Shown here in pieces: positions 19,747 through 36,164 of a stretch of DNA of 64,000 bases (position 1 is the stretch's first letter; each line of letters begins with the position of its first letter). Origin of the DNA: Pseudomonadota bacterium (GTDB taxonomy: Bacteria > Pseudomonadota > Alphaproteobacteria > Puniceispirillales > Puniceispirillaceae); NCBI GenBank assembly GCA_027620495.1, contig JAQCEA010000003.1, forward strand, positions 62,001 through 126,000, in the 5' to 3' direction. The position numbers and the translations under genes are program-made. A model generated the notes under the pieces. That model searched no databases, was not told the DNA's origin, and saw only the letters and a program-made list of their open reading frames with translations.

Positions 19747-21267
19747 ATGGTCGCTATGTCACCTGCCACATCATCTCTAGCAACGATCGAAGATGGGGTG
19801 ATATCTGACCCACGTCTTCTTGATGCGGTACCACCTAGCGACCGTGTTGCGGTGATTGATATTGGATCCAATTCAGTGCGGTTGGTGATCTATGCAAAAA
19901 ATGGGCGCTATCCAACCCCGCTTTTTGATGAGCGGTCGAATTGCCAGCTTGGTGCGCGGCTAGATGAAACCGGTAATTTGGTGCAAGACCGGATTGACGC
20001 CGCATTAGAGACCATTACCAGATTCGCCGCGATTATTCACGCTATGGATGTGGCGGCTTGTTACCCCATCGCGACCGCGGCTGTCAGGCGGGCAAAAAAT
20101 GGCGCAGAATTTTATCTGCCGGCAGAAAAGATTCTGGGCCTGCCGATCCAGATATTATCACAACAACAAGAGGCCAATTATGTGTCGCGCGGCTTGACGC
20201 TGAACATTCCCGATGCAGATGGTCTGGTGGCTGATCTTGGGGGTGGCAGTATCGAAATTGTGGCGCTTACAAAAGGCGAGATTACGCACGGCATCAGCTT
20301 TAATTTTGGGCATTTATCAGATGTTGATGAAGCTAAAATTTTGCAGGCATTCGAAAATACCGACTGGATTGCCGCGCGGCGTGCCAAACGTTTATATGGT
20401 GTTGGCGGCAGTTTTCGGGCCTTTGGTGCCGCGTTTTTTGACCGGGCAGCTTACCCGCTACCGGTTCTGCATGGCACCAAAATAAAATCTGATTTTGTTT
20501 CCGCTCTATGTAATGACTTCACCAAATCGAAACCAAATTTTAACGGGGTGCCCCTATCGCGGCAGGCCAGTATGCCGGTTGCCGCAAAAATTGTGCGCGC
20601 GCTTATTCAGGTTTCCGGCGTGGCCCAGCTTGTGGTCAGCGGCACCAGCATTCGTGACGGAGTCATTGCAATTAATGAATTGAATGATGCCCAGCGTGCC
20701 GATTTTCTAATGGCGATTAGTCAGGAAATTGCCGAAGCGAGTGGACGGTTTGCCGGTGTGTCAGACGCGCTAAAGCTATTGTTGCAACCTTTAACCGCGA
20801 TTAACCCTACGCCGGGGTTTTCCAGATTGGTAGAGGTGGCGTGCAACCTTGCTGATATGTGTTGGCATGAACATAGCGATATGCGCGGTGATTTGGCGGC
20901 GCGGCGGGTTTTGGGTTTGCCGGTAAATTGCATGACGCATAAAGAACGAGTCTGGTTAGGTGTTGCGCTGTATCATCGATATGTCGGCACCAAACAGAAC
21001 AAGCCGCGGCCCGACGAATTGGAAAGCTTGCTTGGTGTGCGGCACCGGGCCGAGGCGGTGACCATTGGGCTGGCGTTAAGATTTGCGCTGATTTTCGCCG
21101 CAGGCACAAAAGACTATCTTGGAGATATTCGTTTTGAGATTGATGATAAATTCCTGACATTGCATGTGAATAATTCTGCCCGGCCGTTATTTGACGGTGC
21201 GTGTGCCAATCGGTTCGCTTTGCTGGCGCAAAGTGCTGGACGACAGCCACAAGTGATATGTGCCTGA
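19747..21267 (+). CDS. ppx: Exopolyphosphatase (Ppx/GppA family)
   Basis: A 506-residue Ppx/GppA phosphatase. The actin-fold phosphate loops are AVIDIGSNSVRLVIY and GLVADLGGGSIEIVAL, with the catalytic Glu expected in the TAAVRRAKNG to LSQQQEANY stretch between them. A C-terminal HD-like helical domain follows (LADMCWHEHSDMRGD). It removes terminal phosphate from polyphosphate or hydrolyses pppGpp; the ppk neighbour favours polyphosphate. The gene ends 8 bases inside phoR. Confidence 0.92.
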   Translation: MVAMSPATSSLATIEDGVISDPRLLDAVPPSDRVAVIDIGSNSVRLVIYAKNGRYPTPLFDERSNCQLGARLDETGNLVQDRIDAALETITRFAAIIHAMDVAACYPIATAAVRRAKNGAEFYLPAEKILGLPIQILSQQQEANYVSRGLTLNIPDADGLVADLGGGSIEIVALTKGEITHGISFNFGHLSDVDEAKILQAFENTDWIAARRAKRLYGVGGSFRAFGAAFFDRAAYPLPVLHGTKIKSDFVSALCNDFTKSKPNFNGVPLSRQASMPVAAKIVRALIQVSGVAQLVVSGTSIRDGVIAINELNDAQRADFLMAISQEIAEASGRFAGVSDALKLLLQPLTAINPTPGFSRLVEVACNLADMCWHEHSDMRGDLAARRVLGLPVNCMTHKERVWLGVALYHRYVGTKQNKPRPDELESLLGVRHRAEAVTIGLALRFALIFAAGTKDYLGDIRFEIDDKFLTLHVNNSARPLFDGACANRFALLAQSAGRQPQVICA

Positions 21268-22333
21268 TCTCATGGCGCATCAAAGCCCCCTCACATCGCC
21301 CCTAGATAGTACCGCTATTATTCAGCTGGCTGATATGCTTGATGAGGGGTTGTTGCTGACAGATAGCGCGGGTGTTGTGTTGTCGGCAAATCAGGCGGCG
21401 CGGCGGCTATTTCATGGCGAGATCATCGGTGCGCCTATTTTTGATTTGATTGATGATAGCGGTTTTGACGATTTGTTTCGAAAAGCGGCACTAGAACAGG
21501 TCGAACTGGAAATGCCCTATCACCCGAAAGATGAGACCATCCACCGGGAATTTAAACTGCGCCTCAAGCGGCTCGGTGATGGGCCGGTTGCGCTACTATT
21601 TCTCGACATGACCCGGCAAAAAAATCTGGAAATTGTGCGGCGTGATTTTGTCGCCAATGTCAGTCATGAATTACGCTCGCCGCTGACAAGTCTTGCTGGC
21701 TTTGTCGAAACCTTGCTTGGCGGTGAGGTGCCGGACGAGGCCATGCGGACACGATTTCTGACCATCATGGATGAAGAAGCCAAACGGATGTCGCGGCTTA
21801 TTGACGATCTGTTATCGCTATCTCGCGTTGAGGTTGATGAACATATTCTGCCGGATGATCAGGTAAAATTGCTCGATGTGATGCTGATGGTTCGTGACAG
21901 TCTGACAGGCCGTGCATCACAGCGCGGCATGGCAATCAACATATCTGACCAGCGTGCCGATCAAACGCGAAATCCAGTGATGCTAGGCAGCTTTGACGAG
22001 ATGACCGAGGTGTTTGTCAATATGGTCGAAAACGCAATTAAATATGGATATGAAAATACCGACATAGAGATCAGCATGTTTGAGGTCAGTTCAAACCGCA
22101 TGCAAATTGATGTGACCAACCATGGTGAGGGGATCGAACAACGTCATCTGCCCCGATTGACCGAGAGATTTTATCGTGTCGATAAAGCGCGTTCGCGGCA
22201 GATCGGGGGTACTGGCCTTGGGCTTGCCATAGTCAAACATATCGTGAATCGGCATCGCGGCAGCTTGTCTGTAACCAGTAAGTTAAACGATACCACAACA
22301 TTTTCTGTAATTGTGCCACTAATCCATCCCTAA
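21260..22333 (+). CDS. phoR: Phosphate-regulon sensor histidine kinase, apparently soluble
   Basis: A 357-residue kinase. A PAS domain (about 20-120) comes first. The dimerisation/phosphoacceptor helix follows with VSHELRSPL (His136). The ATPase domain carries MVENAIKYG (N box) and GGTGLGLAIVKH (G2 box). PhoR proteins normally begin with one or two membrane helices; none is present here, and the upstream ppx overlap leaves no room for them. GTG 21260 and ATG 21272 are both possible starts. It should phosphorylate PhoB, encoded at the end of the same locus, and take its signal through PstB/PhoU. Confidence 0.9.
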   Translation: MPDLMAHQSPLTSPLDSTAIIQLADMLDEGLLLTDSAGVVLSANQAARRLFHGEIIGAPIFDLIDDSGFDDLFRKAALEQVELEMPYHPKDETIHREFKLRLKRLGDGPVALLFLDMTRQKNLEIVRRDFVANVSHELRSPLTSLAGFVETLLGGEVPDEAMRTRFLTIMDEEAKRMSRLIDDLLSLSRVEVDEHILPDDQVKLLDVMLMVRDSLTGRASQRGMAINISDQRADQTRNPVMLGSFDEMTEVFVNMVENAIKYGYENTDIEISMFEVSSNRMQIDVTNHGEGIEQRHLPRLTERFYRVDKARSRQIGGTGLGLAIVKHIVNRHRGSLSVTSKLNDTTTFSVIVPLIHP

Positions 22334-22380
22334 ATAAGTAATTATATACTGATTTTATTGAATAAATAAACCATCAGATT

Positions 22381-22424
22381 TTGTCACATAACTGTAATAT
22401 TTCTGTAAATATTCTGACATGTTC
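22381..22424 (+). promoter_or_regulatory. PHO box array upstream of pstS
   Basis: Four consecutive 11-bp units begin TTGTCAC, CTGTAAT, CTGTAAA and CTGACAT, each followed by four mostly A/T bases. This is the tandem 7+4 arrangement PhoB binds. It ends 65 bases before pstS, so phosphate-starvation induction of the pst operon is strongly suggested. Confidence 0.88.
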
Positions 22425-22489
22425 CAAGCCCAAAAGAGCAACATGAGTTCGGAACAGGCCGAATAACTTTGCTTGATTAGGAGATATCA

Positions 22490-23512
22490 ATGCGTTTTTC
22501 TATCATATCCGCTGGCGTGGTTGCTGGCATGTTGGTAGCTGGTGGTGCCCAAGCGCGTGACCAAATTTCAATTGTTGGGTCATCAACGGTTTACCCATTT
22601 GCGACGATTGTCGCTGAAAAATTTGGTCAATCAAGTGGGTTTAAAACCCCGGTGATTGAATCAACTGGCACAGGCGGCGGCATGAAGCTGTTTTGTAAAG
22701 GCATTGGCGTTGAACATCCAGATATCACAAACGCATCCCGCGCAATGAAAAGCTCAGAAGCAAAACTATGCCAAGAGGCCGGCGTTGAATTCCAAGAATT
22801 CATCGTTGGCAATGATGGTGTAGCCGTTTCAAATAGCTTGGCCGGACAGAAATTTAACATTTCGATTGCACATATTGCGGCGGCACTTGCCGCTGAATTG
22901 CCCGATCAGGGTTATGGTGGTGAGGGTGCAAAAGCCAACGGTCTGAAGACGTGGGCAGATGTTGACGCCTATGTTGCCAAAGCCACCGGGTCTGCGGCCA
23001 GTGGACTGCCAGCACAGCCTCTTCAAATCATGGTGCCGCCGCCAACCTCTGGTACACGCGATGCCATGGGGGAATTGTTCATGAAGGCGGGCTGGAAAAA
23101 GCTAGGTCTTGATGGAGATGGTTATAAGAAGCTTCGTGAAGACGGGGCCGCCATTGAAGTGGGTGAAAATGACTCGCTGATCATTGAAAAGCTGGTTGCG
23201 GATAAAGACATGTTTGGCATTTTTGGCTATTCATTCTTTGATCAAAACCGTGACAAGGTCCAATCGTCTGTTCTTGATGGCGTTGAATTAAATTTCGAAA
23301 ATATTGCGTCTTATAAATATCCAGGCGCACGCCCACTATTCGTCTATGTTAAAAAACAGCATGTGGGTGTTATTCCAGGCATGAAGGAATTCATCAATGA
23401 ATTTGTGTCGGAAAAGGCCATGGGCATGGATGGTTATCTGTTCCCAGCTGGTCTTGTGCCATTGTCTGAAGATGATTTTGCCAAACAGATGGCCGCGAAA
23501 AATAGCCTTTAA
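22490..23512 (+). CDS. pstS: Phosphate ABC transporter substrate-binding protein
   Basis: A 340-residue periplasmic phosphate-binding protein. A Sec signal peptide of about 22 residues ends in GGAQA. The mature protein opens with ISIVGSSTVYPFA, the phosphate-binding loop, and later has STGTGGGMKLFC and PPTSGTRDAMGELF, with Thr/Ser/Arg ligands. TTAGGAGATATCA gives a strong ribosome site. It is driven by the PHO box array upstream and separated from pstC by a terminator-like hairpin, as expected for a subunit needed in excess. Confidence 0.96.
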   Translation: MRFSIISAGVVAGMLVAGGAQARDQISIVGSSTVYPFATIVAEKFGQSSGFKTPVIESTGTGGGMKLFCKGIGVEHPDITNASRAMKSSEAKLCQEAGVEFQEFIVGNDGVAVSNSLAGQKFNISIAHIAAALAAELPDQGYGGEGAKANGLKTWADVDAYVAKATGSAASGLPAQPLQIMVPPPTSGTRDAMGELFMKAGWKKLGLDGDGYKKLREDGAAIEVGENDSLIIEKLVADKDMFGIFGYSFFDQNRDKVQSSVLDGVELNFENIASYKYPGARPLFVYVKKQHVGVIPGMKEFINEFVSEKAMGMDGYLFPAGLVPLSEDDFAKQMAAKNSL

Positions 23513-23531
23513 CGGATCACTTGGACGTTAC

Positions 23532-23565
23532 GCAGGTGCCATCTAAAAACTGGCACCTGCTTTTT
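23532..23565 (+). terminator. Intercistronic hairpin after pstS
   Basis: The arms GCAGGTGCCA and TGGCACCTGC are perfectly complementary over 10 bp, with a 9-base loop, followed by TTTTT. It sits 19 bases after the pstS stop and inside the pst operon, so it probably acts as a partial terminator or mRNA 3'-end stabiliser. Confidence 0.88.
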
Positions 23566-23713
23566 CATCTGCATGCCGGGTCGTCTGGCCTGCTTTCCTC
23601 GGGCGAATTTTTTGGCTTGGTCGCCAGTAGATGTTTGATGTGTTGACATGATGGCCAGCAGGCTGTAACCGCAAGGCGCAGGCGCTGGTAATTAATGTTT
23701 TGAAAGGCTGGCC

Positions 23714-25123
23714 ATGGCATTTTTCACAAGTAATGTCGCATTGCTGATCACCACACTTGTGTTTGGTATTGTGGCTTATATGCTGGCCGTTGGTCGTATC
23801 AGGTCGCGAGTTGTGGCTGAGGGTGTAAAATCACATTCGCTTGTCAAATATTATGGTGTCTATGCTGCCTTATGGACATTGGTGCCGGCGTTAATCCTTG
23901 CGTTGATTTGGGCCTTTGCGGCTGACCCGTTGCTGCTCAATGCGGCCGAGGCGCGTCTGGCCACTGCCTTTCCAAACCTGCCTGCCAGCTTTTTGGATTT
24001 GAAATTGGCGCAGCTACAAAATATTGCGGCTGGTTATATTGACGCACCAGATGACATCATGGCGGCAGAGGCGGCAAAATTACGCGGTTCAATGGAACGG
24101 GTTGCATTGGCGCGGGTTTTAACGCTGATGATCGTTATGATGATCGGGTTATTATTTGCATTTTTCCGGGTGGCGCCAAAGTTCAAAGCGCGGGTTGCCT
24201 TTGAAGGGTTTTTACGGCGCAGTTTTTTTGCCGCCGCGGTTTTGGCTATTCTGATAACCATCGGGATCGTGGCGTCACTATTGTTTGAGGCTTACCGGTT
24301 TTTCAGTGAAATCTCAATGATCGATTTCTTTTTCGGTACCCACTGGTCGCCGATGGTATCGCTTCGTGAGGGCGCGGTGGCGGCTGATGAGGCGGTGGCT
24401 GGATCATCAGGGTCATTTGGCATGGTGCCGGTTATGCTGGGTACCTTGCTGGTGGCGGTGATTGCGATGCTTGTGGCGGTGCCGGTTGGGTTGTTTTCGG
24501 CCATCTATACCGCCGATTTTGCGCCGCGCCACGTACGTAATATAATCAAACCCTTGCTAGAGGTGCTGGCCGGTATTCCCACGGTTGTTTATGGGTTTTT
24601 TGCGGCGTTGACCGCGGCGCCATTTTTCAGGGAGGCCGGGTTACTTGTCGGGTTGGATGTGTCATCGCAAAGTGCATTGGCCGCTGGCGGGGTGATGGGC
24701 ATTATGATTATTCCGTTTATTTCTTCATTGTCTGACGATGTCATCACCGCGGTGCCAAAATCATTGCGCGACGGTGCATTGGGGTTGGGCAGCACGCGGG
24801 CTGAAACAATTATGCGGGTGGTGTTGCCAGCGGCGTTTCCCGGGCTTGTGGGGGCATTTTTGCTGGCAATGAGCCGGGCGGTTGGCGAAACAATGATTGT
24901 TGTCATGGCGGCTGGGGTGGCGGCTAATTTGACGATCAATCCGCTTGAATCTGTTACCACGGTGACGGTACAGATTGTGATGTTGCTGACAGGTGATAAT
25001 GAATTTGACTCAGTCAAGACATTGTCGGCATTTGCCCTAGGGATCACCCTATTTGTGGTGACCTTGCTGTTGAATATCGCGGCTTTGCATGTATCACGTA
25101 AACTGGGGCAGAGATATGAATGA
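23714..25123 (+). CDS. pstC: Phosphate ABC transporter permease PstC, enlarged form
   Basis: A 469-residue permease, much longer than the roughly 320 of E. coli PstC. The extra length is an N-terminal part with two membrane helices and an extracytoplasmic segment (about 60-130). The conserved MetI-type core starts near residue 210 and includes the EAA loop around LRDGALGLGSTRAETIMRVV. Long PstC proteins are usual in alphaproteobacteria. Its stop overlaps the start of pstA. It pairs with PstA to form the phosphate channel. Confidence 0.94.
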   Translation: MAFFTSNVALLITTLVFGIVAYMLAVGRIRSRVVAEGVKSHSLVKYYGVYAALWTLVPALILALIWAFAADPLLLNAAEARLATAFPNLPASFLDLKLAQLQNIAAGYIDAPDDIMAAEAAKLRGSMERVALARVLTLMIVMMIGLLFAFFRVAPKFKARVAFEGFLRRSFFAAAVLAILITIGIVASLLFEAYRFFSEISMIDFFFGTHWSPMVSLREGAVAADEAVAGSSGSFGMVPVMLGTLLVAVIAMLVAVPVGLFSAIYTADFAPRHVRNIIKPLLEVLAGIPTVVYGFFAALTAAPFFREAGLLVGLDVSSQSALAAGGVMGIMIIPFISSLSDDVITAVPKSLRDGALGLGSTRAETIMRVVLPAAFPGLVGAFLLAMSRAVGETMIVVMAAGVAANLTINPLESVTTVTVQIVMLLTGDNEFDSVKTLSAFALGITLFVVTLLLNIAALHVSRKLGQRYE

Positions 25124-26459
25124 TCATAGCAACAGCGTGTCATCATCGCCTGGTGCAAGTGGGCTTTATAGCGCGCCGACAGATGTAAGGATGGCACACA
25201 TCGCGGCGGGCCTGAAGAAACGCCGCGCCGCATCAAAACGCCTTCGTTTCTATGGGATTATGGCGATCGTCACCGCAATTGGGTTTTTGTGCATCCTGCT
25301 CACCACCATCATCAGCAATGGATATACCGCGCTACAGCAGACTGAAGTTGCGGTGGTCATTGAGGTGCCAGCTGGTGAGATTTTGGATGATGCCGGTGCG
25401 ATTGATGCGGAAAAATCTCGCAATTTCAATTGGGCTGGTTTGGTAAAGCGCAGCTTTAGAAAAGAATTTCCCGAAGTGACCGGTATGCTTGAACAGCGTA
25501 GCCTTGGTGAATTGCTGTCAGCCAATGCAGGCTATGATTTGCGATTGCAGATTGAAGATGCCGGTGTCGTGCCAACCGGCCCGGTGACGTATTGGGTAAA
25601 GGCATCAGATGATGTTGATATGCTGATGAAAGGTCGCATGGATCGTACCATTGATGAAAAAATGCGCCGGATCAAAGATGACCAGCTTGTCTGGTTTGAT
25701 AAAACTGTTGCAAAAGACAATATCAGGTTGGTCTTTAATTCAACTTTTTTCACCATGGCTGATTCGCGTGAACCGGAAAGCGCCGGGGTGCTTGGCGCGA
25801 TTGTTGGGTCGGCGCTGGCGCTTATTGTGACGGTTGTTTTGGCATTGCCGCTTGCCGTTATGGCGGCTGTTTATCTTGAATATTTTGCCCCGCCCGGTCG
25901 GCTTACAGATTTTATCGAGGTGAATGTCAATAATTTGGCCGCGGTGCCGTCAATAGTGTTTGGGCTGTTGGGTTTGGCGGTTTTTTTGGGATTCTTTGGC
26001 ATGCCGCGATCAGCCCCGCTTGTTGGTGGTATGGTGCTGGCCCTGATGACATTGCCAACCATTATTATTGCTACGCGGGCATCAATTCGGGCTGTGCCAA
26101 GCTCCATTCGCGATGCGGCGCTGGGGCTTGGGGCCTCGCCAATGCAGACGGCACTCGACCATATTTTGCCGCTAGCGGCGCCCGGCATTTTGACTGGCAC
26201 AATCATTGGTATTGCACAGGCGCTTGGCGAAACCGCCCCGCTGATCATGATTGGCATGGTGGCATTCATCGTTGATGTGCCTACCAGCTTTACCGATCCG
26301 GCAACCGCCTTGCCGGTTCAAATTTTTATTTGGTCTGATAGCGCCGAACGCGCATTTTACGAACGTTCGTCTTTGGCCATTATGGTGCTTTTATTGTTTT
26401 TGATTTCGATGAATCTGGCGGCCGTGATGCTACGCCGCAAATTTGAGAAGAAGTGGTAA
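25116..26459 (+). CDS. pstA: Phosphate ABC transporter permease PstA, enlarged form
   Basis: A 447-residue permease, also longer than the E. coli protein. A cytoplasmic N-terminus ([15 protein letters not shown]) is followed by one helix, a periplasmic insert of about 150 residues and then the five-helix MetI core. The EAA loop is [23 protein letters not shown] 25116 overlaps the pstC stop and has GGGGCAGAG in front; a start at 25089 would be deeper in pstC. Confidence 0.93.
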
Positions 26460-26464
26460 TTGAG

Positions 26465-27247
26465 ATGGACTCAACAACCAAACCAATGGCTGCCAGCAAA
26501 TTAAAGGCTGTTGACGTCAGCGTTTTCTATGGGGAAAAGCAGGCACTCTATGATGTCTCGTTGAACATAGACGAAAAATCAGTGACCTCTTTTATCGGCC
26601 CGTCAGGTTGCGGAAAATCAACATTTTTGCGTTGCTTTAACCGGATGAATGACGTCATTCCATCCTGCCGGGTTGCGGGCCAGATCATTATGGATGATGT
26701 CGATCTGAACAGTCCAAAAATTGACCCGGTGTTATTGCGCGCACGGGTTGGGATGGTGTTTCAAAAACCCAACCCATTTCCTAAAACAATATATGAAAAT
26801 GTGGCCTATGGGCCGCGTATTCATGGGTTGGCTGCCAATCGTCAGGAGATGGATTTTATTGTCGAGGATAGTCTGAAAAAAGCCGGGTTATGGAAAGAAG
26901 TGTCTGACCGGTTGAATGATCAGGCAACTGGGCTTTCAGGCGGCCAGCAACAGCGTTTATGTATCGCCAGGGCGATTGCCGTTGGACCAGATGTATTGCT
27001 AATGGATGAGCCATGTTCCGCTTTGGATCCGATTGCCACCTCGATCATCGAGGAACTGATCAGCGATTTACAAAATCGCTTTACCATTATGATTGTGACA
27101 CATTCGATGCAGCAGGCGGCGCGGGTTTCACAAAAAACCGCCTATTTTCATCTTGGTAAATTGATTGAATATGGCGATACCAAAGAGATTTTTACGCGGC
27201 CTCAAAATGAACAAACCGAAGCCTATATTTCTGGCAAAATCGGGTAG
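26465..27247 (+). CDS. pstB: Phosphate ABC transporter ATP-binding protein
   Basis: A 260-residue ABC ATPase. Walker A is GPSGCGKST, the Q-loop region is [12 protein letters not shown] (PstB-specific), the signature LSGGQQQR, Walker B VLLMDEP and the switch His in IVTHSMQQA. It energises phosphate uptake and, with PhoU, relays phosphate sufficiency to PhoR. A GTG at 26453, overlapping pstA, is an alternative start; neither candidate has an ideally spaced ribosome site. Confidence 0.96.
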
Positions 27248-27256
27248 GAGCTGAAT

Positions 27257-27967
27257 ATGGAAGAACAACAACATATTAGCACAGCATTTGATAAAGATTT
27301 GTTGGCGCTGAACGAAATGGTGCAAGCACTTGGTAGTTTGGCCATAGCCCAATTTGAAACGGCGATAGACGCGCTGGCAACACAGCATGTGAAGACGCTT
27401 GATCAAATTATCAGCAATGATGCCAAACTTGACGATCTTGAAGCCACCATCCACGAAAAAGCGCTCGAGGTGATTGCGCTCCGCTCGCCACATGCCAAAG
27501 ATTTAAGACAGGTGCTGGTGGCGTTGAAAATTGCCACGATACTGGAGCGCACTGGCGATTATGCACGTAACATTGCGAACCGAACCAAGGTGATTGCACA
27601 AGCTAGCAATGAAAATATTCCTGGCGTTAATATTGGGCGGATGGGTCAGGTTGCACAGCAAATGTTGCATGATGTCATGCGGGCCTATGATCAACATGAC
27701 GTTGATCTGGCGTTGGCGGTTTGGCGCCGTGATATCGAGGTGGATCACATGCACACAGCCTTTTATAAAGAGGTGTTGGCCTCGATGGCGCGTGATCCAA
27801 ATCTTGTGGCGACAGGCGCGCATCTTTTGTTTATTGCCAAAAATATTGAACGGATTGGCGATTATGCAACGGGTATTGCTGAACAGGTGCATTTTCTGGT
27901 TCGCGGTGCGGTGCCGGAAGATTCGCGCCCGAAAGCAGACCGTACGAGCAAGGTGGTGGGTGTTTAG
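27257..27967 (+). CDS. phoU: Phosphate transport/signalling regulator PhoU
   Basis: A 236-residue all-helical protein of two three-helix PhoU repeats; each repeat carries the metal-binding E/DxxxD pattern (ILERTGDYARN and IERIGDYATG). It starts MEEQQHISTAFDKDL. It inhibits PhoR under phosphate-replete conditions through contact with PstB and the PhoR PAS domain. The gene lies 9 bases after pstB and 15 before phoB. Confidence 0.94.
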   Translation: MEEQQHISTAFDKDLLALNEMVQALGSLAIAQFETAIDALATQHVKTLDQIISNDAKLDDLEATIHEKALEVIALRSPHAKDLRQVLVALKIATILERTGDYARNIANRTKVIAQASNENIPGVNIGRMGQVAQQMLHDVMRAYDQHDVDLALAVWRRDIEVDHMHTAFYKEVLASMARDPNLVATGAHLLFIAKNIERIGDYATGIAEQVHFLVRGAVPEDSRPKADRTSKVVGV

Positions 27968-27982
27968 CCTATTTGGTGACAT

Positions 27983-28684
27983 ATGGCAGTGACGATTTTA
28001 ATCGCGGATGATGAACCCAATCAGCTTGAGTTATTGTCCTATAATCTCGAACAAGCCGGATTTGCCGTGCTACAGGCCATGCATGGTCAAGATGCGCTGC
28101 AGAAAATTGAAGACCATCGCCCGGATCTGGTTATTTTGGATTGGATGATGCCGCAACTGTCAGGTATCGAGCTATGCCGTACCTTGCGGTCGCGCGCAGA
28201 TACCAAATTGTTGCCGGTCATTATATTGAGTGCGCGTGGCGAGGAAGGTGACCGTACACTTGGTCTTGATACCGGCGCTGATGATTATATGTCAAAACCA
28301 TTTTCACCACGTGAACTTGTGTCGCGGGTAAAAGCCCTGTTGCGGCGGTCGCGCCCAGCTTTGCTGAGTGATGTTTTAGAATTTGCCGATGTAAAGCTGT
28401 TTCCAAACCGGATGGAGGTAGAGCGGGCTGGCCATATGGTGCCGCTTGGCCCAAAGGAATTTCGCCTGCTGTCTATCCTGATTGAGCGACCCGGTCAGGT
28501 ATTCAGCCGCGCCCAGCTTCTCGACCTTGTATGGGGCCACGGCGTGTATGTCGAAGAACGCACCGTCGATGTACATCTCAGCCGGTTGCGCAAGGCCATT
28601 AATAAACCAGATGGCCGTACTGAATTGCCAAATTTGATCCGCACTGTTCGTGGAAGCGGCTATGCGTTACGGGTGCCCCAATAA
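27983..28684 (+). CDS. phoB: Phosphate regulon response regulator
   Basis: A 233-residue OmpR/PhoB response regulator. The receiver has the acidic pair at residues 9-10, phosphoacceptor Asp53 in LDWMMP and Lys105 in MSKPFSP. The C-terminal winged helix ends with the recognition region VEERTVDVHLSRLRKAI and a beta hairpin RGSGYALR. It should bind the PHO boxes upstream of pstS and of the plcP-like gene. It is the last gene of the pst operon. A T-run follows the stop, but no clear stem precedes it. Confidence 0.95.
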   Translation: MAVTILIADDEPNQLELLSYNLEQAGFAVLQAMHGQDALQKIEDHRPDLVILDWMMPQLSGIELCRTLRSRADTKLLPVIILSARGEEGDRTLGLDTGADDYMSKPFSPRELVSRVKALLRRSRPALLSDVLEFADVKLFPNRMEVERAGHMVPLGPKEFRLLSILIERPGQVFSRAQLLDLVWGHGVYVEERTVDVHLSRLRKAINKPDGRTELPNLIRTVRGSGYALRVPQ

Positions 28685-28829
28685 TTTTTTTACTGCTAAC
28701 AATCAGAGCACAAAACTTGTCTACAACCTCGTTTACAGCATTGCCGAGGGTCGAGTGTGGGGGTTGCTGGAGCCGTTTGTCTGTCAGATTTGGATATCTG
28801 TCAGGGGGTGGAGGCGGTGTTTGGGATTG

Positions 28830-29165
28830 TTACTGCATCAGCAGACTGTGAACGATTTTCCAACCTGAGTGACCAACTGGCAGACGCTTCGTGATACGTT
28901 TTGGGTGCCGATCACGCATTGGTTTTGCACTCCCATTCCGCTTTGTTGGATGATTAATATTTGTTTGTTTGAGTGCTTCAAGATGCACTTCACAAACATT
29001 AGACGACAAGTCTATAGCCTCGGTCTTAACAGCGTGTAGGTCTTTATTTATGCACCGTCGTTCCTTCTTTGATTTCTTGTGCTTTGACATTCCCGTTTTA
29101 CGGTAATTCCATTTTCTTGAGCATTTAGGTGCGTTGGTGGGCAAAGAATTTTGCGAACTATGCAT
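28830..29165 (-). CDS. Hypothetical basic protein
   Basis: A 111-residue unrecognised protein rich in Lys, Arg and Asn (GMSKHKKSKKERRC, HPKRITKRLPVGHSG). Support comes from a good ribosome site, GGGAGAG, seven bases before ATG 29165. An in-frame upstream start at 29204 lacks one. There is no membrane segment or signal. It is divergent from the 52-residue gene at 29291. No family is recognised, and base composition offers no independent support, so it may be spurious. Confidence 0.35.
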   Translation of the reverse strand: MHSSQNSLPTNAPKCSRKWNYRKTGMSKHKKSKKERRCINKDLHAVKTEAIDLSSNVCEVHLEALKQTNINHPTKRNGSAKPMRDRHPKRITKRLPVGHSGWKIVHSLLMQ

Positions 29166-29290
29166 TTGCAACTCTCCCATTAACTGCAATAGCATCAGGG
29201 TCACATCGAAATATTTCAGTTTTTTGACAAGATCATAAATCTATGATTCTATTAGACATTGTTTTGTTAGATCACATGTGAGGAGAATAA

Positions 29291-29449
29291 ATGAGAAAAA
29301 AATTATTCAAGCTCAAGATGAAATTTTATGAAGCATTGACTGGAGGCAAAAACACGAGAGCCTTCAAGATAAGAAAGAAAATGCTCAAACAAGAAGTGCG
29401 CATATCAGCGTGCGGCAAATCATTTAAATCGCACCACATAGTCACATAG
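29291..29449 (+). CDS. Small basic protein of 52 residues
   Basis: A short gene with a very strong ribosome site, AGGAGAATAA, directly before the ATG. The product is highly basic in its first 35 residues (MRKKLFKLKMKFYEAL, then AFKIRKKMLKQE) and could form an amphipathic helix. It has one Cys and a C-terminal HHIVT. No family is recognised. It lies between phoB and the PHO-box-controlled lipid genes but has no PHO box of its own that I can see. Confidence 0.5.
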   Translation: MRKKLFKLKMKFYEALTGGKNTRAFKIRKKMLKQEVRISACGKSFKSHHIVT

Positions 29450-29672
29450 TTTGGGCAATCTCTTTAACAGTTAATTTTTGCATACTCATGAATAATATGC
29501 CTTTTCAAGAAAGCTGCCTTTCCGATTCGTTGAAAAGTCTAGAAACAGCTAACCGCTTGAAAAAAATTTATGAAACAAATTCAGCTTGTTACATTCAATA
29601 CAAATGCTTTAATAATTCCTTAACAAAAGAGTCTTGTACTTGGATAAGAGTTATCAATTTGCGGAGACAAGT

Positions 29673-29900
29673 ATGAAAAATGCGGTTCCACTAAACACCA
29701 TTGCCAAAATTTATCATATCACCGTAAGTGAATTGCTTTTCGCGGTGCAGGCCAGATGTATTGAGGTGGTTTGGATCGAAAATGAAGCATATGCAAACGC
29801 AAGCGATTTTGAGTTCCTGAACACCTCCGACGAAATATTCATTAATACTGAACCACAGAGCGCGCTTAGCAACGATAAAGTAAATCACGAATTTTCGTGA
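29673..29900 (+). CDS. Hypothetical 75-residue protein, possible helix-turn-helix
   Basis: A small protein with GCGGAGAC before ATG 29673; a longer start at 29634 lacks a site. The segment VPLNTIAKIYHITVSELLFA resembles the helix-turn-helix of excisionase-like or MerR-like small DNA-binding proteins. It is followed by a strand-like IEVVWIENEAY and an acidic C-terminal half. No partner gene or family can be named. The assignment as DNA-binding is by eye only. Confidence 0.5.
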   Translation: MKNAVPLNTIAKIYHITVSELLFAVQARCIEVVWIENEAYANASDFEFLNTSDEIFINTEPQSALSNDKVNHEFS

Positions 29901-30165
29901 GGGTTTGAAGCCACAGTTTTTCCTGTTTGTTTTACCTCAGTAACCCTAACTGGCATCTTACACCGGCAATTTTACAACTGCGTTAAGCTCACATGCATTC
30001 TTTGTTAAAACAAAAGCGTCTTAAAACATGGTGCTCTATATTCATGAAGCCATAATCAAATTAGGGTCATGTTAGAGAAGTATAAACTTGGTTACCTAAG
30101 CCAAATCAGGGTTGTCTATAGACATGCTGAGTTGATGCCATGGCCCAAAACTATTGATCCAGTTA

Positions 30166-30183
30166 CTGTCATAATAATGTCAC
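30166..30183 (+). promoter_or_regulatory. PHO box upstream of the plcP-like gene
   Basis: CTGTCAT-AATA-ATGTCAC is a nearly ideal 18-bp PHO box. A further TTGTAAT half-site lies at 30199, exactly three 11-bp steps from the first. A TTGACA at 30209-30214 may be the -35 element. The box is 72 bases before the metallophosphatase start, predicting PhoB-dependent induction of the two-gene lipid operon. Confidence 0.85.
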
Positions 30184-30255
30184 AAAAAATTTAAATTTTT
30201 GTAATCTGTTGACACTAGTTTCACGACGTCTTTTGTATGCGAGAAGGCACGGTGT

Positions 30256-31116
30256 GTGAACGATCAATCGCCAATTTTAAATAGATATCGGAGTATTTGG
30301 ATCTCAGATATCCATCTCGGTACGCCTGGCGCTAGTGCCGAACAGCTTCTTCATTTCTTGAAACACACGCGTAGCGAATATTTGTTCCTCGTGGGCGATA
30401 TTGTTGACGGTTGGCAGTTGAAGAAACGTTGGTACTGGCCCCAAGCACACAACGATGTTGTTCAAAAATTATTAAGGAAAGCCCGCCACGGCACAAATGT
30501 AATATTTATACCCGGTAACCATGATGAGGCGGCGCGCCAATATGCCGGCCTGACTTTTGGAGAAATCAAATTATGTCAGGACTACATTCATGAAACTACC
30601 GATGGGAAAAGGCTTTGGATTGTGCATGGCGACCTGTTTGACCACATCATTCAACATGCTCGCTGGCTGGCATACATTGGTGACAAAGCCTATAATGTTT
30701 TACTCCGGATGAATCGCTGGTTAAATGTTTGCCGTGACGCACTCAACCTACCTTACTGGTCGCTTTCTCAATACCTAAAACTCAAGGTCAAATCAGCAGT
30801 CTCATTCATTTCAGCGTTTGAACACGTTATGGTTACCGAAACGCGTCGACGCGGATGTGATGGAATCATTTGTGGCCACATACACAAACCAGAATTAAAA
30901 AATATAGATGGAATCATCTACGGAAATGACGGTGACTGGGTTGAGTCTCTGTCAGCACTTGTTGAGCATCATGATGGGTCTTTAGAACTTCTTGACTGGA
31001 GTCAAATCTGCGAAAGCAACGCTTGGCGTGGTGCTGTTTATGATGACATTAGCGTTGTCGATGGGGAACCAGTAAAAGCCATGGGGATGCTGGCCTCTGG
31101 AGGCCAAAGCCGGTGA
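30256..31116 (+). CDS. plcP: PlcP-like metallophosphatase (phospholipid phospholipase C)
   Basis: A 286-residue calcineurin-type metallophosphoesterase. All metal motifs are present: SDIHLG, GDIVDGW, GNHD, VHGD and GHIHKPE. The architecture is close to LpxH. In marine and rhizobial alphaproteobacteria, PlcP proteins of this type cleave phospholipids to diacylglycerol plus a phosphorylated head group during phosphate starvation. The PHO box upstream and the diacylglycerol-using fusion protein overlapping by 4 bases make PlcP much likelier than LpxH. GTG 30256 follows GAGAAGG. Substrate specificity is inferred from context. Confidence 0.87.
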   Translation: MNDQSPILNRYRSIWISDIHLGTPGASAEQLLHFLKHTRSEYLFLVGDIVDGWQLKKRWYWPQAHNDVVQKLLRKARHGTNVIFIPGNHDEAARQYAGLTFGEIKLCQDYIHETTDGKRLWIVHGDLFDHIIQHARWLAYIGDKAYNVLLRMNRWLNVCRDALNLPYWSLSQYLKLKVKSAVSFISAFEHVMVTETRRRGCDGIICGHIHKPELKNIDGIIYGNDGDWVESLSALVEHHDGSLELLDWSQICESNAWRGAVYDDISVVDGEPVKAMGMLASGGQSR

Positions 31117-32564
31117 AAATTTTGATTGTCACCGACGCGTGGTATCCGCAAATAAATGGGGTTGTTAGAACTCTAACAAAAACACGCGAGAATTTGACTA
31201 AGATGGGGCATAAAGTTGAACTGATCACCCCTCAGTCATTTCGCACAATTCCGTGCCCCACTTATCCTGAAATTAGGCTTTCTATATTTCCAGGAAATAA
31301 GGTTGCTGAAAAAATTCAATCGTTTCAACCAGACGCAATTCATATCGCGACTGAGGGGCCTCTTGGTTTAGCCGCTCGGCGTTACGCAACATCACATGAC
31401 CTTAGCTTTACAACCGCATATCACACGCGTTTTCCAGAATATGTGCACTCAAGGACCAGATTGCCACTCAGCGTTACATATGCATTCTTGCGTTGGTTTC
31501 ACAGCCCAGCTCATGCAGTAATGGCCCCTACAAAAACAGTGATAAATGACTTGAAAAAATGGCGTATTGGCAAACCAGTTTTATGGCCGCGTGGAGTCGA
31601 TCTTACAATTTTCAACCCAAACAATAGAAACGTTCAAAAGCCGAGTGAAAACAGCCATCGGTTGAGCAAAAGTATTGCAAAACTTGATGCCTCAAAAAAA
31701 CCTATTTTTATTTATGTTGGACGGGTGTCTGTAGAGAAAAATCTTGGTGGATTTTTAGACCTAGATTTGCCAGGTGAAAAACATGTTGTTGGTGATGGAC
31801 CCGCACTTAAAGCTCTGAAAAATAGATATCCAGATGTTATTTTTCATGGTGCGCATTCGATGGAAAGTTTGCCGGCATTCTATACTCGAGCCGATGTATT
31901 TGTGTTTCCCAGCCGGACAGATACTTTTGGCCTTGTTCTTTTAGAGGCCATGGGTTGTGGTTTGCCCGTAGCAGCTTTTCCAGTGACGGGTCCAATAGAC
32001 GTCGTAGGTGACTCTGGCGCGGGTGCATTGGATGATGATTTAAAGAAAGGTTGTTTAGATGCCCTAAAAATTGACCGAAAGACCGTTCGATTGCACGCTG
32101 AAACATTTTCATGGGAGGCAGCGACAGATTTATTTTTTGGTCACCTTACCAAGAGTCACAAACCGTCGTCAGGCTATAAGATATCAAAAAACCCCCATAA
32201 GACAAACCATGGCATAAAGCGCGTTTTTGTGGCTGCTAAAAACTCACTTGCTGGAATAGCGTTCGCGATCAGAGAGGAAAGTGCATTCCGTCAGGAACTG
32301 CTTCTCGCTGTTTTATTAATTCCACTCGCATTCATAGTGCCATCTAACTTGGCAGAAAAAATTATGATGCTGTCATCGATAGCGCTGGTATTGTTGGTGG
32401 AGCTGCTTAATAGCGGAGTTGAAGCTGCGGTGGATCGAATTTCTTTTGACAAGCATGGATTATCCAAACGTGCCAAAGACTATGGTAGTGCTGCGGTGTT
32501 CGTTGCGTTGACAATATGCACTGGAATCTATGGTGCATTTATTTGGCGCTGGTTAGTCGATTAG
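31113..32564 (+). CDS. GT4 glycosyltransferase fused to DgkA-type diacylglycerol kinase
   Basis: One uninterrupted 483-residue frame. Residues 1 to about 345 are a GT-B family 4 glycosyltransferase. It starts LIVTDAWYPQINGVVRTL, and the donor-site EX7E-type motif is FPSRTDTFGLVLLEAMGCG, as in SqdX/Agt-like lipid glycosyltransferases. After a polar linker, residues 367-483 are a complete prokaryotic diacylglycerol kinase with three membrane helices. The residues equivalent to E. coli DgkA Glu28, Glu69, Asn72, Glu76, Asp80 and the Lys-Asp pair are all kept (EESAFRQE, VELLNSGVEAAVDRI, RAKDYGSAA). Diacylglycerol made by the upstream PlcP could be glycosylated or rephosphorylated by the same membrane-bound polypeptide. 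The family assignments are firm; the joint function is inference. Confidence 0.9.
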   Translation: MKILIVTDAWYPQINGVVRTLTKTRENLTKMGHKVELITPQSFRTIPCPTYPEIRLSIFPGNKVAEKIQSFQPDAIHIATEGPLGLAARRYATSHDLSFTTAYHTRFPEYVHSRTRLPLSVTYAFLRWFHSPAHAVMAPTKTVINDLKKWRIGKPVLWPRGVDLTIFNPNNRNVQKPSENSHRLSKSIAKLDASKKPIFIYVGRVSVEKNLGGFLDLDLPGEKHVVGDGPALKALKNRYPDVIFHGAHSMESLPAFYTRADVFVFPSRTDTFGLVLLEAMGCGLPVAAFPVTGPIDVVGDSGAGALDDDLKKGCLDALKIDRKTVRLHAETFSWEAATDLFFGHLTKSHKPSSGYKISKNPHKTNHGIKRVFVAAKNSLAGIAFAIREESAFRQELLLAVLLIPLAFIVPSNLAEKIMMLSSIALVLLVELLNSGVEAAVDRISFDKHGLSKRAKDYGSAAVFVALTICTGIYGAFIWRWLVD

Positions 32565-32593
32565 CGTCCCAAGACAATTCTCTTTAACTGCAC

Positions 32594-33490
32594 TTATGAT
32601 GCCTTGCTCTTTGATGCATTCAGGCTTGACTGTAATGTGGGCACGATGTCATCGCCTTTATATGTTTGGTGCCTAAGAAATTGGGTCACCATATTACGGT
32701 TAGCCATTTCGGCTAATTCAGAACTGTGAATGGCCGGGCGCATTGAGACAACTAAATTGGTTCCCATTCTTCTGCATATTTCTCTAAACATCAGTGAATA
32801 GCCTAGTGTCAGGCTTATTTTTCTTGCAATTTGAAACAGCACTGAGTTGCGCCCCTCAAAATAAAAAGGAACGGTTGTTGTATCGGGTTGCATAGCTAAT
32901 TTTGCTACAAAGCTTTTCCAAGGCGCATCACTCGCAGCACCTGCAATATTTCGCGATAGCGATATAGCGCCTGCTGGAAAAATTATAATTGCACCACCAC
33001 CCTCGAGGTGCTTCAGCGCTTGGCGGCGAGACTCCAAATTTGTTTTTAACGCAACTTCCGTCTCGTCAAAATCTATTGGTAAAATTTTGTCCATAACCGC
33101 AGGGGCTTGTCTAAGCACCCGGTGGGTAATAATTTTGTAGTCCTGACGCACCTCCGCCATAAGTGAACACAAAGCAAGCCCATCTATGACCCCATAAGGA
33201 TGATTAGCAATCGCCACAACGCGCCCAGTAGCTGGAATCGACGCCGATACTCCGTTAGAAATATCCCGGCGGACATCAAGTTTGATGCGCAACCGATCAA
33301 GTGCATCTGACCAAAAATATTCTGGATTCAAATTATCATTCACATAGTCAAAATACAGTTTTTCAACACGAGGTTGACCGGTCAATTTTTCGAGATAGCG
33401 AATGATTTTGTTTGAAATGACACCCATCTCCCCATCAGCAAATGAGAAAATTGGGTCGGGGGCGGAACTGGTTTGCGTTATTTGCGACAA
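32594..33490 (-). CDS. PlsC-type (lysophospholipid/ornithine-lipid-like) acyltransferase
   Basis: A 298-residue 1-acylglycerol-3-phosphate acyltransferase-like protein. The catalytic HX4D motif is NHPYGVIDG, the second-block equivalent is FPAGAIS, and a third block is around TTVPFYFEGRNS. It resembles the acyltransferase domain of hemolysin/OlsA-like proteins, which acylate lyso-lipids including lyso-ornithine lipid. It converges on the glycosyltransferase-kinase gene, 29 bases away, and shares that segment's A+T-rich composition, so a role in the same lipid remodelling is plausible. I see no convincing PHO box in front of it. Confidence 0.82.
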   Translation of the reverse strand: MSQITQTSSAPDPIFSFADGEMGVISNKIIRYLEKLTGQPRVEKLYFDYVNDNLNPEYFWSDALDRLRIKLDVRRDISNGVSASIPATGRVVAIANHPYGVIDGLALCSLMAEVRQDYKIITHRVLRQAPAVMDKILPIDFDETEVALKTNLESRRQALKHLEGGGAIIIFPAGAISLSRNIAGAASDAPWKSFVAKLAMQPDTTTVPFYFEGRNSVLFQIARKISLTLGYSLMFREICRRMGTNLVVSMRPAIHSSELAEMANRNMVTQFLRHQTYKGDDIVPTLQSSLNASKSKAS

Positions 33491-33878
33491 TAGCTATTAC
33501 CTCAACTCAGTCTTAATTTTGAAAATAGTCGCAAATCTTTAAGCTTTTATTACAATATCTTTAAGGCTATCTGATGTTTGGTAGAAACAATTTGATGATT
33601 GAATTTGGACCGTCAAAGAAAAGACTAGCGCCGTAGCCGTCCCGAGTTAAGAGAGGTTAAGGCAGGGGGGATACTGGATGTGTTACAATACCCAACCATT
33701 GATCTTTGCCAAAAGCATTTCAGCAATTCGATAAGGATGGCCAGCAATGAATAGACCGAGTGAATTTATTTATTTAAATATCTGATCTTGATTGGGCCAA
33801 AATTGCTGGTATGGCTAGGCAATTATGTTAGCGGCGGTAAATTTGCCGCCATCACAAAAGATAGAGCGAGACAGGTTT
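33491..33878. other. Intergenic region, composition boundary
   Basis: Divergent promoter space between the acyltransferase and the conserved unknown gene. The left 120 bases are A+T-rich; from about 33600 composition returns to that of the main chromosome. No gene, tRNA, attachment-site repeat or clear regulator site was recognised. Confidence 0.5.
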
Positions 33879-34794: not shown

Positions 34795-34943
34795 GATTTG
34801 GATGTGCGGCTAGATTGACAACGTTTTGAACAATAGCGCACCTCTGGCCAGTTGCGTTCCCATTTTTTCCGCCACGTAAATGGTCGGCCGCAATGGGCGC
34901 ATATTTTTTTTGGCAAGTCAGCTTTTTTTAACATCTTTGTCAT
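34791..34943 (-). CDS. DUF2256 small zinc-finger-like protein
   Basis: A 50-residue protein with the DUF2256 signature: [18 protein letters not shown] followed by VRYCSKRC, giving two Cys pairs (CX2C and CX3C) that could hold one zinc, plus the invariant Trp/Arg/Lys-rich middle. Function is unknown; homologues are often found near photolyase/cryptochrome genes, which are absent here. It converges with yaiI, overlapping by 4 bases, and is divergent from arsC. Its size makes it easy to miss. Confidence 0.88.
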
Positions 34944-35010
34944 ATTAGACTTGTATCACTGCAATCTTGTAAAATGTAAAGAGCTGGGTCTGCGTGTGAC
35001 TGTATCGATT

Positions 35011-35499
35011 ATGCCGATCAATCTATTATTTTTATGTACTGGGAATTCGGCCCGTTCATTGATTGCCGAAGGTGTGTTGCGCCAGCTTGGTGGCAAGTCA
35101 TTCAGGGCGTTTTCAGCCGGGTCACATCCAACCGGCACGCCCAATCCGCATGCCATTGCGGTGTTGCGCCAGCATGATATAGACACCAGTTTTGCCCGCT
35201 CTAAAAGCTGGGATGAATTTGCTGGTCCAACGGCCCCGCATCTAGATTTGATCATCACCGTTTGCGATAATGCGGCGGGTGAATCCTGTCCAATCTGGCC
35301 GGGGCGCCCGGCAACGGCGCATTGGGGGCTTGCTGATCCGGCTGCGGTTGACGGCAGCCAGCATGAAATCGCCGCGGCATTTGCCGCCACCTATGATGAA
35401 TTGGTGCGGCGGATCACATATCTTCTAGACCATCACCCAGATGCATCAAATATCGGGGCTTTGGCCAAAAAGATGACCAGCCATGAGGTAAATAAATGA
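35011..35499 (+). CDS. arsC: Arsenate reductase, low-molecular-weight phosphatase type
   Basis: A 162-residue LMW-PTP-fold arsenate reductase. The P-loop CX5R is LCTGNSAR (Cys9, Arg15). Cys85 and Cys93 in VCDNAAGESCP are placed like the relay cysteines of thioredoxin-coupled ArsC. It reduces arsenate to arsenite. ATG 35011 gives the normal N-terminus, but GTG 34996 is an alternative with a slightly better upstream purine run. The next gene overlaps by ATGA and encodes a channel able to release arsenite. Confidence 0.88.
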   Translation: MPINLLFLCTGNSARSLIAEGVLRQLGGKSFRAFSAGSHPTGTPNPHAIAVLRQHDIDTSFARSKSWDEFAGPTAPHLDLIITVCDNAAGESCPIWPGRPATAHWGLADPAAVDGSQHEIAAAFAATYDELVRRITYLLDHHPDASNIGALAKKMTSHEVNK

Positions 35500-36164
35500 T
35501 GGATTTGTCACGCCGATTATTTGCCGAATGGTTTGGCACCATGATGTTGGTGGCCACCGTTGTCGGGTCCGGCATTATGGCAGAGCGTCTTGCTGGCGGT
35601 AATGTTGCGATTGCGTTGCTAGGCAATACCATTGCCACCGGTGCCATTTTGGTGGTGCTGATTTCCATATTAGGCCCAATATCGGGGGCGCATTTTAACC
35701 CCGCTGTTTCATTTGCTTTTGCATTGCGCCGGAATATCGCCCCGCGCATTGCCCTTTTATATATGGTCTGGCAAATCACTGGCGGGCTATGCGGCACGGT
35801 TATGGCGCATCTGATGTTTGAAGAACCAGTCTTTCAAATTTCGGCACATATACGTTCTGGCATGGCGCAATATGCGTCTGAATTTGTTGCGACATTTGGT
35901 TTGTTGGCGGTGATTTTTGGCGGCATTCGCTTTAGCCAAACGGCCATCCCGTGGTTGGTGGGTCTATATATCACCGCAGCCTATTGGTTCACGGCATCGA
36001 CCAGCTTTGCCAATCCGGCGGTGACCATTGCGCGCAGCTTTACCAATAGTTTTTCGGGTATTTCCCCAGATAACATGCCGTTCTTTATCATCGCGCAATT
36101 GCTTGGTGCGGCAGCGGCCAGCATTATTTGTGGATGGCTTTTTGCCGAGACGCATACGAAATAG
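35496..36164 (+). CDS. aqpS: MIP-family aquaglyceroporin (AqpS-like arsenite channel)
   Basis: A 222-residue major intrinsic protein with six membrane helices and both NPA half-helix motifs (HFNPAVSFAF and FANPAVTIARSFT). Overlap with arsC by ATGA points to arsenic detoxification, as with AqpS of Sinorhizobium, where arsenite formed by ArsC leaves down its gradient through the channel instead of an ArsB pump. No arsR or arsB was seen next to it. Water or glycerol transport cannot be excluded. Confidence 0.85.
   Translation: MMDLSRRLFAEWFGTMMLVATVVGSGIMAERLAGGNVAIALLGNTIATGAILVVLISILGPISGAHFNPAVSFAFALRRNIAPRIALLYMVWQITGGLCGTVMAHLMFEEPVFQISAHIRSGMAQYASEFVATFGLLAVIFGGIRFSQTAIPWLVGLYITAAYWFTASTSFANPAVTIARSFTNSFSGISPDNMPFFIIAQLLGAAAASIICGWLFAETHTK

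Follow-up and report, generated by a model that had tools for sequence, protein, structure and literature searches.

The 64,000-nucleotide stretch analyzed here (positions 62,001 to 126,000 of the forward strand of contig JAQCEA010000003.1, assembly GCA_027620495.1, from a bacterium of the Puniceispirillaceae; hereafter "the window") carries a gene in which a glycosyltransferase (GT) of family GT4 is joined in a single frame to a diacylglycerol kinase of the DgkA type, next to a gene for a PlcP-like metallophosphoesterase. Judged from its sequence, the product is likely to be a bifunctional enzyme that would convert diacylglycerol (DAG) released by PlcP either to glycolipid or to phosphatidate, with the kinase serving as a salvage route or safety valve. 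The source genome is 2.40 Mb in size and rated 100% complete, and its taxonomic order includes SAR116. The locus is composed as follows, in window coordinates.

30166-30183, + strand: PHO-box-like site CTGTCATAATAATGTCAC, 72 bp upstream of the plcP start
30256-31116, + strand: PlcP-like metallophosphoesterase, 286 amino acids, PF00149 at 49.2 bits
31113-31116, + strand: 4-base overlap GTGA of the PlcP-like and fused genes
31113-32564, + strand: fused GT4-DgkA gene, 483 amino acids, GTG start, single frame without internal stop
31113-32147, + strand: GT4 domain, residues 1-345, Agt/GTcp-like; PF13439, PF00534, PF13692
32148-32174, + strand: short linker, residues 346-354
32175-32561, + strand: DgkA part, residues 355-483, PF01219

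Phosphate-linked Setting of the Fused Gene

An earlier note on this DNA had described a near-perfect PHO box ahead of the operon, a 4-base overlap with a PlcP-like gene, and one frame holding a GT4 domain and a complete DgkA with its catalytic residues kept. All three descriptions hold: the PHO-box-like site matches 12 of the 14 specified consensus positions, the overlap is GTGA, and the Pfam domains and checked residues described below agree with the third. The consensus was taken from the available part of PMC8528852 and scanned on the + strand only; the 300 upstream bp were shuffled 200 times by dinucleotides, and no shuffle scored as high as the window site. Upstream of plcP lies a further set of phosphate genes, named by their Pfam domains and order.

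21260-28684, + strand: phoR, pstS, pstC, pstA, pstB, phoU, phoB cluster

The operon is probably controlled by PhoB, and the 4-base overlap would couple translation of its PlcP-like and fused genes. The name PlcP was assigned from fold and position. In the NCBIfam search the LpxH models fell far under their cut-offs, and the gene stands in the context expected of plcP, that is, a metallophosphoesterase adjoining an agt-type GT under a PHO box. The ∼1.6 kb between phoB and plcP (28685-30255) contains just short, mechanically called open reading frames, and a search of Rfam gave no match across 28600-33600.

The Glycosyltransferase Half

Pfam placed Glyco_transf_4 at residues 14-165 and Glycos_transf_1 at residues 193-306 of the fused protein, both over cut-off, and the best Protein Data Bank matches of its AlphaFold model (Foldseek) were of GT4 type, with MshA, BshA, PimA, and PimB′ among them; together these place the half among GT4 enzymes of GT-B fold. 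Its motifs include H104, GRVSVEKN, which has Ser for Ala once relative to GRVAXEKN, and FPSRTDTFG, which matches FPSXTDTFG. All 11 residues named for SAR11 GTcp in the part of PMC8231724 available are present when positions are mapped by motif, the H-D pair being kept, and they are invariant in the 15 fused proteins of alignment A1, whose other 14 members are 56-67% identical to the window protein. No NCBIfam equivalog reached its cut-off for this half (the best, GlcN-PG synthase and MGlcDAG synthase, were both far below), and no Agt model appeared among the NCBIfam matches. The GT half probably makes glycosyl-DAG from DAG and a uridine diphosphate sugar (UDP-sugar).

The Kinase Half and the Fusion Joint

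DAGK_prokar (PF01219) matched residues 377-473 with 99.1 bits against a cut-off of 22.3, and the DgkA half aligned without gaps (E 5e-19) to diacylglycerol kinase 3ze3, which we take to be the Escherichia coli enzyme. Eleven positions presumed to have catalytic (including metal-binding) or structural roles, numbered as we take them to be in E. coli, were checked (R9, S17, E28, R32, E34, E69, N72, E76, D80, K94, and D95), and all 11 are present. All of these except R9 and S17 are invariant in each of 34 fused rows and each of 48 rows from cassettes in which plcP, agt, and dgkA are separate genes. The ratio of nonsynonymous to synonymous change (dN/dS) was below 0.4 for both halves in every related pair listed, the listing being limited to pairs with a synonymous difference of 0.02-0.6, and both halves are evidently under purifying selection. 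The AlphaFold model, a monomer, has a mean predicted local distance difference test score (pLDDT) of 87 with low values at residues 351-360, and its DgkA part consists of four helices, a surface helix followed by three long ones. This half probably phosphorylates DAG to phosphatidate.

The DgkA part might instead act mainly as a membrane anchor and trimerization scaffold that brings the GT to DAG, its kinase activity being incidental or lost. GT4 enzymes of the Agt/GTcp clade are soluble or peripheral, the fusion gains long helices in the model, and the length of the linker is almost fixed, all of which would suit a scaffold. However, a pure scaffold should lose some of the nine catalytic or metal positions, which are invariant in all 34 fused rows; elsewhere an unfused dgkA stands behind agt, and one genome (G493, see below) keeps a GT-less dgkA beside phoR and pstS homologues. 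A scaffold role is unlikely on these grounds. In Gram-positive bacteria the relatives of DgkA phosphorylate undecaprenol, and the substrate here could likewise be undecaprenol or another lipid alcohol, which would tie phosphate starvation to the supply of the cell-wall carrier; however, every solved relative with an E value of 0.01 or better carries the name diacylglycerol kinase, and DAG is both produced and consumed by the products of the partner genes, leaving this alternative with very little probability in comparison with a kinase acting on DAG.

The DgkA part begins with YKISKNPHKTNHG, resembling many free cassette DgkA proteins. The joint motif of the fused form is YHIADNPHKDNHG, as compared with YHINQNPHKGNRG at the start of a free cassette DgkA, and because many free cassette DgkA proteins start with the joint motif, the fusion seems to have absorbed a whole DgkA. 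The NPHK motif of a split DgkA was considered as a relic of fusion and rejected, since many cassette DgkA proteins share that N terminus. Of 33 fused relatives, 32 have a spacing of 27-29 residues from FSW to NP[HY]K, and the remaining one gave no value. In the window, no in-frame ATG, GTG, or TTG that could start a separate DgkA lies between residues 330 and 372.

Distribution of the Fused Form

Among 61 genomes of the window's family, DgkA was found in 14, always in frames of 471-503 amino acids (that of G054 with an internal stop), and a plcP homologue adjoins the fused gene in all 14. A further 11 have the GT only, G059 being a doubtful member of this set because of an N gap, and DgkA was found in none of the 36 GT-less genomes. 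In the window's order (136 genomes) 47 have DgkA, of which 46, including G054 with its stop, have it in frames of 464-503 amino acids; the 47th, G493, has a frame of 194 amino acids. Both domains were checked by profile in 34 rows, the window's included, and for the rest of the 46 fusion was read from frame length. The 34 rows include 31 from the window's order or SAR116 and three from elsewhere or unplaced; three of the 34 are single-contig assemblies. In a sample of the class (386 genomes) DgkA was found in 59 and was fused in five, with G274 (family f9) the one case outside the window's order. In a sample of the phylum (397 genomes) the window's gene was the only stop-free full-length match among the matches listed, and nowhere did plasmid records cover 80% of the fusion.

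The earlier note had named a sequencing error hiding a stop between the domains as what would undo its reading. Such an error, a missed stop or a frameshift joining two genes, finds some encouragement in two genomes (G757 and G834) in which agt and dgkA share a frame and are separated by a single TAA. Against it, the fused frame recurs by length in 46 genomes of the order (the stop of G054 lies elsewhere) and in the 34 rows that were profiled for both domains, including three single-contig assemblies. The probability of this explanation is negligible: because the frame is kept in many assemblies, it is not a sequencing error.

In locus L053 of G054, an in-frame TAA lies early in the DgkA half of the fused gene, which is a pseudogene or an assembly error. 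G059, a candidate for a basal unfused case, was dropped on account of 10 N at the end of its GT. In the long DgkA frames of G430, G118, and G312, considered as other fusions, no GT was found, and their extra stretch looks non-coding by eye. A further candidate is the 933-amino-acid frame of G361.

Separate-gene Cassettes and Phylogeny

Relatives from named genomes were represented by the best 80 of 554 confirmed relatives, so that proportions are biased to close relatives. Of these loci, five are fused, 50 have adjacent but separate agt and dgkA near plcP, and 25 have no DgkA in the available DNA. The plcP-agt-dgkA cassette is mostly found in Burkholderiaceae by name, with Cupriavidus, Ralstonia, Polynucleobacter, Paraburkholderia, and Burkholderia among the carriers.

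The fused and cassette rows come together in a single 82-row group of the DgkA tree, with a Shimodaira-Hasegawa-like approximate likelihood ratio test (SH-aLRT) support of 90; E. coli DgkA, 46 other stand-alone alphaproteobacterial rows, and three divergent rows of family f30 fall outside it. The tree was made without L053, with its internal stop, without L137-L140 (second genome copies or not needed), and without rows shorter than 85 residues, including one of the 49 cassette loci other than L207; the DgkA profile built here missed L059, L258, L266, and L279, all of which were found by Pfam. Since the fused DgkA shares a group with DgkA encoded directly behind plcP-agt, the kinase appears tied to the pathway apart from the fusion.

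The 34 fused GTs all fall inside one 53-row group of the GT tree (SH-aLRT 99); this group also holds unfused GTs of the window's family and of f9, and its closest neighbors are mainly Burkholderiaceae cassette GTs. Every second cassette GT was taken for this tree (25 rows), and G059 was kept as a row. Well-supported branches force at least two state changes in the DgkA tree and at least three in the GT tree; the fusion may have arisen once and then been lost several times, or may have arisen more than once.

The fused DgkA is the sole DgkA in the window's genome, in which no OpgB- or EptA-type source of DAG was found, the one PF00884 protein being a choline-sulfatase. Likewise, the cassette dgkA encodes the sole DgkA in 10 of 11 cassette genomes, hand-picked from 50; the eleventh has two.

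Two other sets of loci were noted. In the 1.4-Mb genomes of family f30 (L273, L275, and L276), a dgkA on the opposite strand lies near plcP-agt and is transcribed away from it, and these are the DgkA rows that do not group with cassette DgkA. In IMG/VR loci L227-L250, an Agt-like GT is present in 24 of 24 and DgkA in 0 of 24, with a plcP homologue in the same locus in 19 of 24, mostly directly before the GT. A phage-type polynucleotide kinase is encoded nearby in L240, and the neighbors in L231 look bacterial; it is possible that these loci carry phage-borne lipid-remodeling genes.

Observations That Weigh against a Bifunctional Enzyme

Several observations count against a bifunctional, phosphate-regulated enzyme that salvages DAG. 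Ten g7 genomes have the GT without DgkA, and family f9 has both fused (G274) and split (G186) forms. In AG-911-I18 (L147, 3165-5100), plcP and a GT 81% identical to that of the window are kept, and DgkA is reduced to a stub of ∼16 residues joined straight to the end of the convergent acyltransferase gene, a joint that could be chimeric because this is, by its name, a single-cell genome. The DgkA half, absent or separate in several relatives, is evidently not indispensable. Near the start of the DgkA part, nine of the 33 fused relatives carry ATG, GTG, or TTG, from which a separate DgkA product is possible. Three cassette rows (Thiomonas and two metagenome-assembled genomes) lie outside the main DgkA group, and the DgkA tree was built on few columns. 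Only six of 27 other fused loci gave a PHO box with p at or below 0.05. The main counterargument is one of cost, in that spending ATP to rephosphorylate DAG during phosphate starvation looks wasteful; this objection loses its force only if the kinase is important at times of UDP-sugar shortage or returning phosphate.

At the same p threshold, a PHO box was present in 42 of 52 adjacent-gene loci (L053, the fused gene with a stop, being counted among them), five of 23 loci without DgkA, and none of three in family f30. Phosphate control is, by these counts, well supported for the window locus and not for every relative. On the favorable side, homologues of pho, pst, or ppk genes (above ∼200 bits, by our count) were near nine of 27 fused loci, within flanks that are short. 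In G493 (L280), a dgkA that is of the fused type but free-standing, with no GT, lies between phoR and pstS-pstC homologues and, by eye, adjoins a porin-like gene. The DgkA half is modular, yet it lies near phosphate genes in the lost and split cases.

Since several relatives have lost the DgkA half or carry it separately, obligatory coupling of GT and DgkA is unlikely. The same losses bear on the proposal that the fusion is a regulated branch-point switch or proofreading device, in which one site controls the other or DAG is channeled between them. Two opposite fates for one substrate, a 1:1 stoichiometry, and an almost fixed joint would fit such a device; however, the linker is predicted with low confidence, and the Burkholderiaceae have adjacent separate genes. 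The earlier note had offered this device together with the idea of competing fates of DAG. What stands of its reading is the phosphate-starvation lipid-remodeling setting, the genuineness of the fusion, and the membership of both domains in families that use DAG; the switch itself appears quite unlikely, and a bifunctional enzyme of the salvage or safety-valve kind is preferred.

Proposed Mechanism and Relation to Known Systems

In the mechanism proposed for this bifunctional enzyme, PlcP would strip head groups from phospholipids to leave DAG on the cytoplasmic face of the inner membrane, where the GT4 half would combine it with UDP-sugar to form glycolipid and the DgkA half would phosphorylate it with ATP to phosphatidate, which could re-enter phospholipid synthesis. 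As a safety valve, the kinase would hold down DAG levels whenever UDP-sugar is scarce or phosphate becomes available again; as a salvage enzyme, it would make the acyl-glycerol of one phospholipid reusable for another. Fusion would keep both DAG-consuming sites membrane-bound at 1:1, and if DgkA forms its usual trimer, the GT would be trimeric as well. We infer these activities and substrates, the trimer, the regulation, and the valve role from sequence and context. That the kinase handles DAG made by PlcP is argued by analogy with E. coli DgkA, with the EptA/MCR-3 pairing, and with PlcP and DagK of Pseudomonas putida.

Among the closest known systems is the PlcP-Agt remodeling of Agrobacterium, Phaeobacter, SAR11, and Pseudomonas, which the window resembles in having a metallophosphoesterase followed by a GT4 enzyme of the Agt/GTcp clade under a PHO box and in keeping the GTcp motifs and mutated residues. 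It differs in that the window GT bears a C-terminal DgkA. SAR11 Agt converts DAG to glycolipid, according to the available part of PMC8231724, and plcP-agt neighborhoods are described by Sebastian et al. in that of PMC4796936. No word beginning "kinase" occurs in the main texts of four PlcP/Agt papers (PMC4796936, PMC8231724, PMC9239053, and PMC8528852).

E. coli DgkA (PF01219) shares with the window DgkA the ungapped alignment and the checked positions; it is a stand-alone recycler, whereas the window's DgkA is fused and such a DAG source was not found in its genome. E. coli DgkA recycles DAG from membrane-derived oligosaccharide (MDO) synthesis and, most likely, from EptA, and DAG accumulates 20-fold in dgkA nulls (PMC8027125, available part). 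The pairing of DgkA with EptA and MCR-3 (PMC7559476, available part) likewise joins a DAG-producing enzyme to a DAG-recycling DgkA; it differs in serving lipid A modification, with no glycosyltransferase and no fusion. In P. putida BIRD-1, PlcP and a DAG kinase are enriched together under phosphate depletion, and no fusion or plcP-agt-dgkA order is described in the part of PMC5082522 available. Two points weaken this last analogy and, with it, the proposed role of the kinase: P. putida DagK may belong to another kinase family, dagK (K07029) being listed apart from dgkA in the available part of PMC13086504, and the proteins absent from a P. putida phoBR mutant include PlcP, with DagK not named in that part of PMC5082522.

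A literature search in which most subscription journals were outside coverage found no description of a GT-DgkA fusion or of a plcP-agt-dgkA cassette, and the earlier note likewise knew of no such fusion.

Neighboring Genes

Downstream, a convergent gene may contribute to the same response.

32594-33490, - strand: acyltransferase resembling the N-terminal half of the ornithine-lipid synthase OlsF

It matched OlsF in NCBIfam at 3.1e-37, under the full-length cut-off, and PF19576 over cut-off. Possibly this is a second gene for a phosphorus-free lipid (an aminolipid), and a homologue was found in only two of 33 related loci. The product also resembles the N-terminal half of GlsA. Close to the pho region, at 34852-36164 on the + strand, a gene for a low-molecular-weight phosphatase, presumably arsenate reductase-like, has a 4-base overlap with an aquaporin-family gene, and this pair possibly serves arsenate detoxification.

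Implications for Phosphate-starvation Remodeling

Abundant ocean bacteria are known to remodel their lipids when starved of phosphate, and DAG that escapes glycosylation has no assigned enzyme in the literature, as far as the available parts of the sources extend. Tentatively, the kinase may be a dedicated third enzyme of PlcP-Agt remodeling in SAR116 and Burkholderiaceae, unlike the housekeeping recycler of E. coli; in SAR116, a trimeric GT-DgkA hub might apportion PlcP-derived DAG to glycolipid or phosphatidate depending on the supply of UDP-sugar and ATP, allowing lipid exchange in both directions as phosphate rises and falls. The SAR116 fusion and the Burkholderiaceae cassette suggest an overlooked third enzyme of phosphate-starvation membrane remodeling, and they open a direct test in which loss of the kinase is set against build-up of DAG and the rebuilding of the membrane when phosphate returns.

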